64,000 bases of DNA from Bradyrhizobium sp. WSM471 (GTDB lineage Bacteria; Pseudomonadota; Alphaproteobacteria; Rhizobiales; Xanthobacteraceae): positions 930,001-994,000 of the forward strand of contig NZ_CM001442.1 in NCBI RefSeq assembly GCF_000244915.1, in the 5' to 3' direction. The stretch's first letter is position 1. Every line of letters begins with the position of its first letter. Below are positions 29,620 through 45,874 of the stretch, piece after piece. The notes beneath the pieces were generated by a model that saw only the letters and a list, made by a program, of their open reading frames with translations, did no database searches and was not told where the DNA came from. The position numbers and the translations under genes were made by a program.

Positions 29620-29945
29620 TATCCCTGCCGATTCGCGGCGACCCTGTCATCAGGCTTAGGCGCTCCGCGATCGGACCAGATGATCCCGATTCGGCGCGAC
29701 TTCCTCCCAAGTTCCTGAGCCCGTTGCGAACCTTATTGCGATTAATTCGCAATAGCAACTAGTGCAGATTGCCGCAGGGGATGGTTCGCATCGCGATGTG
29801 ACGGGACTGCAACAAATTCCAAGGTCCCAAAACGGTTGACCCCGCCCGGGGGGACATCCGGGCGGGGTCGGGGGCACGACACGGGGTGGATGAGGCGCCC
29901 GTGTCGGACGCAGGATCCACGTGAGATCGGCCTCAGGGACTCAAA
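29620..29945. other. Intergenic region between fusion porin and small exported protein (326 bases)
   Basis: Both flanking genes read leftward, so this should hold the porin promoter, toward 29620-29760, and the terminator of the small gene (29838-29869). The stretch 29730-29800 is AT-richer than its surroundings. I see no gene in it. Confidence 0.6.
29838..29869 (-). terminator. Strong 12-bp hairpin downstream of the small exported-protein gene
   Basis: GACCCCGCCCGG and CCGGGCGGGGTC form a perfect 12-bp stem with an 8-base loop, about 77 bases past the stop of the gene at 29946-30209. On the reverse strand it is followed by AACCGTTTTGG, a weak T-run. The position and strength fit an intrinsic-type terminator. 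Confidence 0.7.
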
Positions 29946-43526: not shown

Positions 43527-43581
43527 CGGCGTTTCGCGCGTCGTGGCCGTGAGAATCGTTGAAGCGACATGCCTCCCCGAT

Positions 43582-43697
43582 GTCGTCCTGGCGAAAGCCA
43601 GGACCCATAACCACCGCCAGCTGTTTTGCGAATGCTGGTGGTGATGATCTGTTCCAACGACTCCTCCCTGGGGGTTCCTGGCTTTCGCCAGGACGAC
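43582..43697. repeat. Palindromic intergenic repeat, family A copy 2 (intact)
   Basis: The ends are exact inverted repeats of 22 bases (GTCGTCCTGGCGAAAGCCAGGA and its complement) around a divergent interior. The left arm continues CCCATAACCACC, which is useful because it shows the uninterrupted form of the site that the IS element at 44319-45704 has entered. It sits between the antiporter and the small PepSY-like gene; the rest of 43527-43844 has no gene. Confidence 0.85.
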
Positions 43698-43844
43698 GGC
43701 GGAGAGCGGTGGCGACGGCGCGGGAACCGCCACCAAATCGCCGCAACCGCCGAAGATTTGCGCGTCTTCGTGACGGCTGCTCCCGGAACGCTCCGTGCTG
43801 CCGCTCGTTCTTAGCGGCGTAAACGCACCTGACAGGAGTAATCC

Positions 43845-44280: not shown

Positions 44281-44318
44281 CCGCCCCAACGTCGTCCTGG
44301 CGAAAGCCAGGACCCATA

Positions 44319-44584
44319 TGTGGACGGCCCCCGTGGCACAAGAGCTTAGTGAGGTTTGATCGGATCGCTTGCATCCATATGTCCGGCCTGTTGATGCGGC
44401 TTTGTCGGACCGCTGGCCAAGATGGTTTTCGCGACACGAGTTCCAATCACCCATGCGACCTTATTCGGCCAATGGGTCCTACGGATTTGCTCGCATCTCG
44501 AACGATCGATCGCACCATCTCCTCTGCTCTTGCAGCTCCGGTTCGGCCGGTGGGGCTAACCCGCCGGTCGGCCGAATCTTTCGA
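44319..44584 (-). ncRNA. Candidate bridge RNA region at the IS 3' end
   Basis: This tail after the transposase stop has no gene. On the reverse strand it begins with a strong stem TTCGGCCG/CGGCCGAA (44542-44576 region). It then contains GGAGATGGTG (44512-44521) and AGGACCCAT (44472-44480). The first resembles the left side of the element's own target on that strand (GGTGATGGTT), and the second is the exact complement of the right side (ATGGGTCCT). That strand arrangement is the one described for target-binding loops of IS110-family bridge RNAs. Transcription, exact ends and the donor loop are not established; a weak GTCCG/CGGAC stem near 44382-44411 might be the donor part. Confidence 0.55.
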
Positions 44585-45634
44585 TCACACGGCAGCGGCC
44601 GTTTGGGCCTCGTTTTGCGCCCCTAGCCGCGCGCGATCGTATTGCTCTCCCGTCGTCATCAGCTTCCAGGCGATGCGGGCCATCTTGTTGGCCAGCGCCA
44701 CCGCCGCCAGCTTCGGTGTTTTGCGCTTCAAAAGCTCGATCAGCCAGCTCGGCCCACGAGCTTTCGATTTGGCGATCTTGACCACCGAAGTTGCCCCAAG
44801 CACCAGCAGCTGACGCAAGGTCTCATCGCCTGCACGGGTTATCTTGCCGAGCCTGGTCTTTCCCGCGGTGGAATGGTCCTTTGGGGTCAGGCCGAGCCAG
44901 GCGGCAAACAGCCGTCCCGAGCGGAAGGCGTGAGGATCGGGTGCCTTCATCACCAGTGCTGCGGCGGTGACCGGACCGATCCCCGGGATCTGAGCCAAAC
45001 GACGGCTCAAGGCATTGGCACGGTGCCAGGCGAGAAGCTTCGCCTCCACTGCCTTCAGCTCGACCTGCACCTGATCATATTGGCGGGCAAGCGTCGCAAA
45101 CAGTTCGCGGGCCAGCGTCGGCACCCTTTCATCGTGCTCGATTGCGGCCAGGAACGAGACCAGCTTGTCCAGCCCCTTGGCCTCGATCAGACCGAACTCC
45201 GCCGCATAGCCGCGGATCATGTTGGAAAGTTGAGTGCGTCGCACGACCAGTTGTTCGCGGATGCCCAGCAGCATCAGCGCGGCCTGTTGCTCGGCGGTTT
45301 TCACCGGCACATAGCGCATCCGCGGCCGGCTCGCCGCCTCGCACAGCCCCTCTGCATCGCGCCCATCGTTCTTATTGCGCGCCACGTAGGGTTTCACCAG
45401 CTGCGGAGCGATCAGCTTGGCTGTGTGTCCCAGCTTACCTAGCTCTCGCGCCAGGACGTGAGCCGCCCCACACGCCTCGATCACCACCACCGTCGGCGGC
45501 AGCTTGGCAAAGAACTCCAGCATCCCCTTGCGGCCAAGCCGTTTGCGCAGCACGACCTGCTCCGAGGCATCCACCCCATGCAGTTGAAAGATATACTTCG
45601 ACGTATCCATCCCAATGCGGATAATCTGGCTCAC
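44585..45634 (-). CDS. IS110-family DEDD transposase
   Basis: A 349-residue transposase. Its N-terminal RuvC-like DEDD domain has MDTSKYIFQLHGVD (Asp), VVVIEACGAAHVLA (Glu) and KNDGRDAEGLCEA (Asp pair). The C-terminal Transposase_20 domain has IPGIGPVTAAALV and LTPKDHSTAGKTRLGKITRAGDETLR, which carries the candidate serine nucleophile (HSTAGK). I chose GTG 45634 because AGGAG lies 6 bases upstream. The ATG at 45670 is possible, but a start at 45766 is outside the element and cannot be right. The sequence looks intact, so the element may be active. Confidence 0.92.
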   Translation of the reverse strand: MSQIIRIGMDTSKYIFQLHGVDASEQVVLRKRLGRKGMLEFFAKLPPTVVVIEACGAAHVLARELGKLGHTAKLIAPQLVKPYVARNKNDGRDAEGLCEAASRPRMRYVPVKTAEQQAALMLLGIREQLVVRRTQLSNMIRGYAAEFGLIEAKGLDKLVSFLAAIEHDERVPTLARELFATLARQYDQVQVELKAVEAKLLAWHRANALSRRLAQIPGIGPVTAAALVMKAPDPHAFRSGRLFAAWLGLTPKDHSTAGKTRLGKITRAGDETLRQLLVLGATSVVKIAKSKARGPSWLIELLKRKTPKLAAVALANKMARIAWKLMTTGEQYDRARLGAQNEAQTAAAV

Positions 45635-45874
45635 GGACGGCTCCTGTGAATGAGTTTCTGACAACCTCATTCTGGCACACTGATGCCGTAGGGGGCCGTC
45701 CACACCATCACCCCGGGGAGTAGTTTTGCGAACACCGGCAGTCACGTTTTCTTCGCTGGTACGCACACCACCGGCCGCTGATAGATCACGCGGTATGGGT
45801 CCTGGCTTTCGCCAGGACGACGGCGGAGGGTGGGCCGGCGGCTTGCCTCAACCGTTGCCTGCTCAACGCCCCCC

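Follow-up and report, generated by a model that had tools for sequence, protein, structure and literature searches.

An IS1111-type insertion sequence of Bradyrhizobium sp. WSM471 with a predicted guide RNA whose segments co-vary with both halves of the target

The element, its ends and its insertion site

We analysed a stretch of 64,000 nucleotides of Bradyrhizobium sp. WSM471 DNA, hereafter the window. It contains an IS1111-type insertion sequence of 1,392 bp on the minus strand (44318-45709), with the following features:

44318..45709, minus strand: whole IS1111-type element, 1392 bp (ends from 8 copies in its own genome and from relatives)
44585..45634, minus strand: transposase gene, start codon predicted (Pfam DEDD_Tnp_IS110 and Transposase_20; NCBIfam NF033542)
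45703..45709, minus strand: left terminal extension GATGGTG, 7 bp (host copies with differing flanks)
45691..45702, minus strand: left subterminal inverted repeat TGGACGGCCCCC (repeat comparison, relatives)
44321..44332, minus strand: right subterminal inverted repeat GGGGGCCGTCCA (repeat comparison, relatives)
44318..44320, minus strand: right terminal extension CAT, 3 bp (host copies, relatives)
45710..45715, minus strand: left half of the target, CGGGGT (flank sequence; co-variation of left targets and left guides among elements)
44309..44317, minus strand: right half of the target, ATGGGTCCT, start of a REP-like palindrome (flank; REP-like repeats in window and genome)

The encoded protein matches Pfam PF01548 (40.9 bits) and PF02371 (83.8 bits), both over the cut-offs, and NCBIfam NF033542, IS110 family RNA-guided transposase (312.4 bits, cut-off 140). 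As in the IS1111 family, it is a DEDD (RuvC-like) transposase with a C-terminal Transposase_20 domain, and its translation, inspected by eye, reads GLTPKDHSTAG, the TA form of the family motif GL-P----S(t)G, in which TA is occasionally found (PMC11187229). Residues 177-287 also gave a weak match to the NCBIfam TIGR-Tas endonuclease (29 bits, under the cut-off of 100).

The host genome, a single contig of 7.78 Mb, holds seven copies whose aligned parts show 100% identity (rounded) and an eighth at 85%. GATGGTG was found just outside the left inverted repeat in 8/8 host copies, and CAT just outside the right one in 7/8, the exception being a truncated copy, L007. The ends were placed at 44318 and 45709 because the host copies compared agree on these terminal extensions. 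The inverted repeats are 12 bp long, or 14 bp counting both flanking chance pairs. In relatives, the left end mostly reads G[AT]TGG.G regardless of the sequence beyond, with exceptions such as GCTGGTG. Subterminal repeats of about 11-13 bp with a 7-bp left and a 3-bp right extension are an IS1111 family trait (PMC11187229), as is a long non-coding region downstream of the transposase gene, here 44318-44584.

A sequence-only reading of this locus had taken 45705-45714 as the left flank and given it as GGTGATGGTT. The stretch reads GGGGTGATGG, and its positions 45705-45709 lie in the constant GATGGTG. Because these are element bases, the true uninterrupted site is ..GGGGT/ATGGGTCCT.., the slash marking the insertion point. 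Among the near-identical host copies, 6/7 keep both junctions and all have the same orientation relative to the repeat; a single orientation in the target and the absence of target duplication are again as in IS1111 elements, L007 being without a right junction. In L007 (G000:C1:7177186-7178585), a deletion between two GTCC repeats apparently removed that junction, and tblastn recovers the transposase of this copy as two overlapping pieces.

The right target begins a palindromic repeat, for example TATGGGTCCTGGCTTTCGCCAGGACGAC, which is REP-like and is named so by its form. Uninterrupted GGGGTATGGGTCCTGG sites were present in relatives (L261 of G003, L265 of G010). More REP-like palindromes flank the element on both sides (window 43577-43609, 43673-43706 and 45794-45826). 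Across the related elements, target positions +1..+3 read ATG in most cases, even where the remaining target differs; this may come from the enzyme or from start codons serving as targets. Elsewhere in the window, 29839-29935 on the minus strand matches the Rfam Rhizobiales-2 RNA (55.2 bits).

The predicted guide RNA and the co-variation of its guides with the target

Downstream of the transposase gene, the element is predicted to encode a guide RNA (seekRNA or bridge RNA). Its parts, named from the fold of the element's own sequence and from the consensus fold, are:

44412..44524, minus strand: guide RNA core, the target-binding arm (covariance model R1, 109.1 bits, its own sequence being among the 26 that built the model)
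44472..44480, minus strand: right target guide AGGACCCAT (co-variation, strongest at 44475-44480)
44449..44454, minus strand: left target guide ATGGGT (co-variation)
44513..44522, minus strand: GGAGATGGTG, earlier taken as the first guide, not a guide (its 44515-44520 pairs with 44420-44425)
44420..44425, minus strand: outer helix, 3' strand CCATCT (fold; pairs with 44515-44520)
44490..44497, minus strand: helix 2, 5' strand (pairs with 44433-44440; 7/8 pairs changed on both sides)
44433..44440, minus strand: helix 2, 3' strand (consensus fold)
44483..44485, minus strand: helix 3, 5' strand, closing the guide loop (pairs with 44442-44444)
44442..44444, minus strand: helix 3, 3' strand (consensus fold)
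44457..44470, minus strand: hairpin helix 4 (GGCC/GGTC), between right and left guides (100% of cells paired)

In this fold, AGATGG and CCATCT form the outer helix, helix 2 is variable and has eight pairs, helix 3 closes the guide loop with three, and a hairpin separates the two guides. Over the 26 sequences, 94.7% of the cells of its 21 pairs are paired and 13/21 pairs changed on both sides, compared with a shuffled mean of 5.1 (0/500 shuffles as high). A conserved fold of the tail, as the sequence-only reading supposed, is thereby supported. When the partner was slid by one column, pairing fell to about 43%. The outer helix varies little, and its support is weaker than that of helix 2. For a longer RNA, an alternative closing helix is predicted, GATCGATCG with CGATCCGATC near the right end. 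The Rfam search gave no match in the element at gathering score; the sole weak match, DUF3800-XI RNA (E 0.25), was taken as chance.

Related elements were collected by DNA, protein and contig searches. The 149 loci obtained comprised 141 with a transposase match, 116 of them with both ends; the ends were called by an anchored rule, since the longest inverted repeat can extend into the flanks. Five were removed by hand (L191, L217, L210, L007, L108) and eight for odd region length, leaving 103 elements, 84 of them distinct, in 61 clusters. Without L096, L134, L136 and L186, which were not aligned, and three with short flanks, 54 clustered elements remained. These carry 26 different right targets, and one representative was taken per right target.

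The co-varying columns form two diagonals: the RNA letters at 44475-44480 complement target positions +4..+9, and those at 44450-44454 equal positions -2..-6. Among the 26 representatives, the right guide matched its own target at 5.27/6 positions, compared with 1.95 for swapped targets and 2.96 for the best of 1000 permutations, and the left guide matched -6..-2 at 4.23/5, compared with 1.51 and 2.31, the permutations treating elements without regard to shared ancestry. In all 54 elements the means were 5.54 own versus 2.55 swapped on the right, and 4.02 versus 1.55 on the left. The own target ranked first, ties included, in 23/26, and the remaining three ranked 4th or 6th. The match of the right guide is beyond chance, because it recurs at the same aligned place of the RNA over 26 different targets. 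For instance, L156 carries guide CAACCGGCA for ATGCCGGTTG and left guide GCGGCAGT for left flank GCGGCAGT, L089 carries CTCGGTT for AACCGAG and GCTCTCGT for GCTCTCGT, and L190 carries CAAATTGCA for ATGCAATTTG. In the window's element, as had been noticed from the sequence, AGGACCCAT (44480-44472, transposase strand) complements the right flank ATGGGTCCT (44317-44309) at every position.

The right score was under 5/6 in 5 of the 54 elements. Of the three representatives that ranked 4th or 6th, L088 and L206 misfit by a one-column shift, and L150 is either a real or a mis-bounded exception. The flank past the right end of L150, ATGAACGCAAGCGATC, looks like the conserved 3' portion of these guide RNAs; insertion into a relative and a misjudged end are both possible. 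In the host element, only 4/6 positions of the left guide agree with the usual target.

Further elements were found with a covariance model built from the 26 representatives. It detected RNAs in 24/289 genomes of a class sample, 26/398 of a phylum sample and 28/297 of an order sample, these samples overlapping and including the host. Set 1, from the class sample, comprised 27 loci, 3 of which gave no ends; the right flank was read in 24 and the left in 17. With strict columns, its right guides scored 3.08/6 own versus 1.61 swapped, a low score because the model alignment places some guides one or two columns out of register. A run-length score allowing shifts of -1..+2 was therefore picked after this result and then kept unchanged for set 2. 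The longest right-guide run in set 1 was 6.33 for own targets, 2.72 for swapped ones and at most 4.38 in 10,000 permutations (n=24), and the left guide scored 3.71/5, 1.20 and at most 2.59, respectively (n=17, 10,000 permutations). Set 2, from the phylum and order samples, is not fully independent, because some of its elements come from the window's genus and have relatives in the first set. It gave 5.73, 2.64 and at most 3.76 on the right (n=33) and 3.61, 1.27 and at most 2.35 on the left (n=23), again with 10,000 permutations. In set 2, L364 was omitted, L363, nearly identical to L341, did not enter the counts for the right guide and the third segment, and L348 and L365, from one genome with the same guides, were both kept. 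Right-guide runs were shorter than 6 in 9/24 elements of set 1 and 19/33 of set 2 and reached at most 3 in 5/24 and 5/33; left scores were 0-1 in 3/17 and 3/23. Some of these misses have wrongly called ends.

Two observations concern single loci. L349 has two RNA-model matches on one strand (1148-1264 and 1501-1617, 353 bases apart), possibly a doubled guide-RNA region. L296 (G000:C1:1898814-1898924) is a second, distant and degenerate host element, in which the RNA stretch TTGGACCTAT complements the right flank ATAGGTCCAA.

A third guide-like segment

One more segment of the non-coding region varies with the right end of the element:

44376..44381, minus strand: third guide-like segment CATATG, equal to right terminus CAT plus target ATG; candidate donor-left guide (co-variation with the terminus)

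CATATG (44381-44376) comes after the conserved AGGCCGGA (44389-44382). In 109/119 elements the first three letters of this segment equal the right terminus at all three positions, the matched termini being CAT, CAC, CAG, TAC, TAT, TAG and CAA. The own mean was 2.82 and the permutation maximum 2.39; on 30 distinct combinations the values were 2.27 and 2.00. The next three letters equal target +1..+3 in 99/119 elements (2.73, maximum 2.55), with matches for CTG in 5/5, GTG in 1/1, ATA in 1/1, ACG in 4/6, AGG in 2/9 and AAG in 1/4. L285, of the set 1 type, was counted here as a miss although its end is visibly wrong. The segment varies with the right terminus and, weakly, with the first target bases, and it may be a donor guide, judging from these letters. 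In the degenerate host element L296, the segment reads TAGATAG, and terminus and flank read TAG/ATAG.

CATATG could instead be a conserved structural or protein-binding site, with a variation that merely follows clades, and we regard this as a real possibility, a little less likely than not. Independent evidence for the third segment is thin, because five changes on the transposase tree (96 of the 119 rows) suffice to explain the five commonest right-terminus types. In the 61 first clusters the terminus is nearly invariant (own 2.97, permuted 2.94, maximum 2.97), and the target triplet fails to beat permutations on the 30 distinct combinations (2.03, maximum 2.07) and just equals the permutation maximum in set 1 (2.60). 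The published 82-nt ISEc11 RNA, which by its length would lack the segment, suffices for transposition according to PMC11187229. Against a mere structural or binding site stand the match to seven terminus types given above, the CAG terminus, for which the tree requires two origins, both with matching RNA letters, and the tracking of CTG, GTG and ATA targets by the next three letters.

When the first set was examined for donor letters that co-vary with the left end, no clear diagonal emerged; the signals were scattered, and most depended on a single variable base. ACCATC (44426-44421), a candidate right donor guide, hardly varies. The letters that follow the left guide resemble the element's left end, as counted (RNA/end) in 52 elements (GTT/GTT 31, GAT/GAT 5, GTT/GAT 15, GTT/GCT 1) and in 19 of set 2 (GAT/GAT 6, GTT/GTT 4, GCT/GCT 1, otherwise 8).

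Because the third-segment letters resemble the target's first bases and the letters after the left guide resemble the element's left end, the long IS1111 RNA might hold a donor loop built like the target loop, in which each left guide runs on into three letters matching its future partner. CAT would run on into the target's first bases (ATG, CTG, ACG, GTG, ATA), and the left target guide into the G[AT]T of the left end. The RNA would then spell both product junctions in advance, as a counterpart, on the bottom strand, to the handshake pairing known from IS621 (PMC11208158). We offer this tentatively, and would sooner expect it to fail than to hold. The idea of a donor loop in IS1111 is itself not new, because a figure legend in PMC11208160 lists six elements, ISPa11 among them, with predicted guides for target and donor.

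Target choice and relation to known systems

Very probably, the element belongs to the IS1111 group and carries a guide RNA that addresses both halves of its target. The comparison of sequences supports directly the ends, the fold, the guide positions, the co-variation of both guides and the preference of the host copies for the left half. As in the published relatives (PMC11187229, PMC11208160), the RNA would be made from the region downstream of the transposase gene, the transposase would bind it, and a circular intermediate would be formed. One internal loop would present, from 5' to 3', the right guide, antisense to the ~9 bases that adjoin the insertion point on the right, the small hairpin, and the left guide, of the same sense as the ~6 bases that adjoin this point on the left. 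The complex of transposase and RNA would read ...NNGGGT/ATGGGTCC(T), a sequence at the edge of REP-like palindromes, on both DNA strands, and insertion would take place between T and A, in one orientation and without duplication of target bases. The third segment, which matches the right terminus, would probably act as donor guide.

The left half of the target was examined at the TATGGGTCCTGG sites of the host, which number 61, 6 of them at the element's own right junctions. GGGT occupies -4..-1 in 5/6 host insertions at TATGGGTCCTGG and in 0/55 unoccupied sites (Fisher p about 1e-6, worked by hand). The absence of GGGT from the unoccupied sites would also be expected if the GGGGT left flank of the host copies were a product of the insertion event and not a choice. 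We consider this very unlikely, since GGGGTATGGGTC was found uninterrupted in 19/37 genomes searched, twice in the host (many of these sites are REP-like, those of L230 and L239 are not), and since elements bearing other left guides adjoin other flanks. The latter was seen in 55 elements that enter the same repeat class with nearly the same right guide:

Left guide GGTT: flank GGTT 33/36, GGCT 3/36
Left guide GCGT: flank GCGT 5/5
Left guide GGGT (the host's): flank GGGT 6/7, GGTT 1/7
Left guide CGGT: flank CGGT 3/7, GGGT 3/7, TGGT 1/7

That the protein itself picks the target by reading the REP palindrome, the RNA-target matches being leftovers of past target capture, would agree with the closest relatives, which show ATGGGTCC on the right wherever the right flank was read. 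It is most improbable, given that relatives with roughly 47-68% identical transposases have many unrelated right targets with matching guides at the same loop positions, that the left guide alone shifts the class of REP entered, and that a published IS1111 member was redirected by altering RNA and donor flanks (PMC11187229).

We give practically no credence to a bridge RNA in IS110 order, with GGAGATGGTG as left guide upstream of right guide AGGACCCAT, as the sequence-only reading had it: its GATGGTG does match the left end of the element exactly, but this match falls on element bases and not on the target, the segment is nearly constant over the 54 elements (GATGGTG 26, GATGGAG 10, others 18) while targets change, and a different segment tracks the left target. 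As left guide, GGAGATGGTG scored 0.67/3 for own targets versus 0.62 for swapped ones (54 elements), with no signal against the left target in either of two registers, one base off and correct, and it pairs with CCATCT as the 5' strand of the outer helix. The co-variation test refutes it as a guide. It had also been placed one base off: GGAGATGGTG lies at 44513-44522, and 44512-44521 reads GAGATGGTGC. A segment kept while the targets are unrelated, which that reading had itself named as grounds for refutation, is what we found for GGAGATGGTG and not for AGGACCCAT. The true left guide, ATGGGT, lies 3' of the right guide, opposite to the order that had been assumed. What holds of that reading is its core, namely an IS110-family RNA in which one sense and one antisense guide match the element's own insertion site in a chromosomal palindrome, with guides that co-vary with targets.

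The closest likeness is to the IS1111 seekRNA elements ISEc11, ISKpn4, ISPst6 and ISPa11 (Siddiquee et al. 2024, PMC11187229). These share the downstream non-coding region, the subterminal inverted repeats with 7- and 3-bp extensions, the absence of target duplication and the guide order, with the top-strand complement (here 44480-44472) 5' of the bottom-strand match (here 44454-44449); ISPa11 also enters REP sequences. Their transposases and target differ from those described here, and the third segment does not appear in the parts of that description consulted. A predicted bridge RNA was reported in 93.0% of IS1111 elements (PMC11208160). With the bridge RNA of IS621 and IS110 (Durrant et al. 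2024, PMC11208160; Hiraizumi et al. 2024, PMC11208158) the element shares a target loop with one guide per DNA strand, and its transposase is detectably related to those of IS621 (8wt6, E 2.9e-8) and ISCro4 (9t56, E 3.4e-10). In contrast to IS621, in which the left guide is 5' of the right one and the RNA is at the left end, the guide order here is reversed, the RNA is at the right end and the inverted repeats are long. A fixed insertion point within REP was described earlier for REP-targeting IS elements, for example in 6/6 copies of ISPa11 (Tobes and Pareja 2006, PMC1525189); that work predates the RNA mechanism, and the word Bradyrhizobium is absent from its text. Literature searches on IS1111 with Bradyrhizobium, seekRNA, bridge RNA and donor guides, which covered titles and the starts of abstracts with subscription papers and bioRxiv largely outside, gave no description of these elements.

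These results extend the IS1111 elements by a mostly alphaproteobacterial group in which targets have changed naturally many times and each guide could be placed to the base by comparison alone. They also show that, where repeats in a genome are otherwise equal, the left half of the target makes the choice among them. Should the third segment prove to be a donor guide, what the longer RNA does, a question left open in the discussion of the seekRNA paper (PMC11187229), becomes directly testable, and if the RNA does spell both product junctions in advance, the long seekRNA would gain a role.
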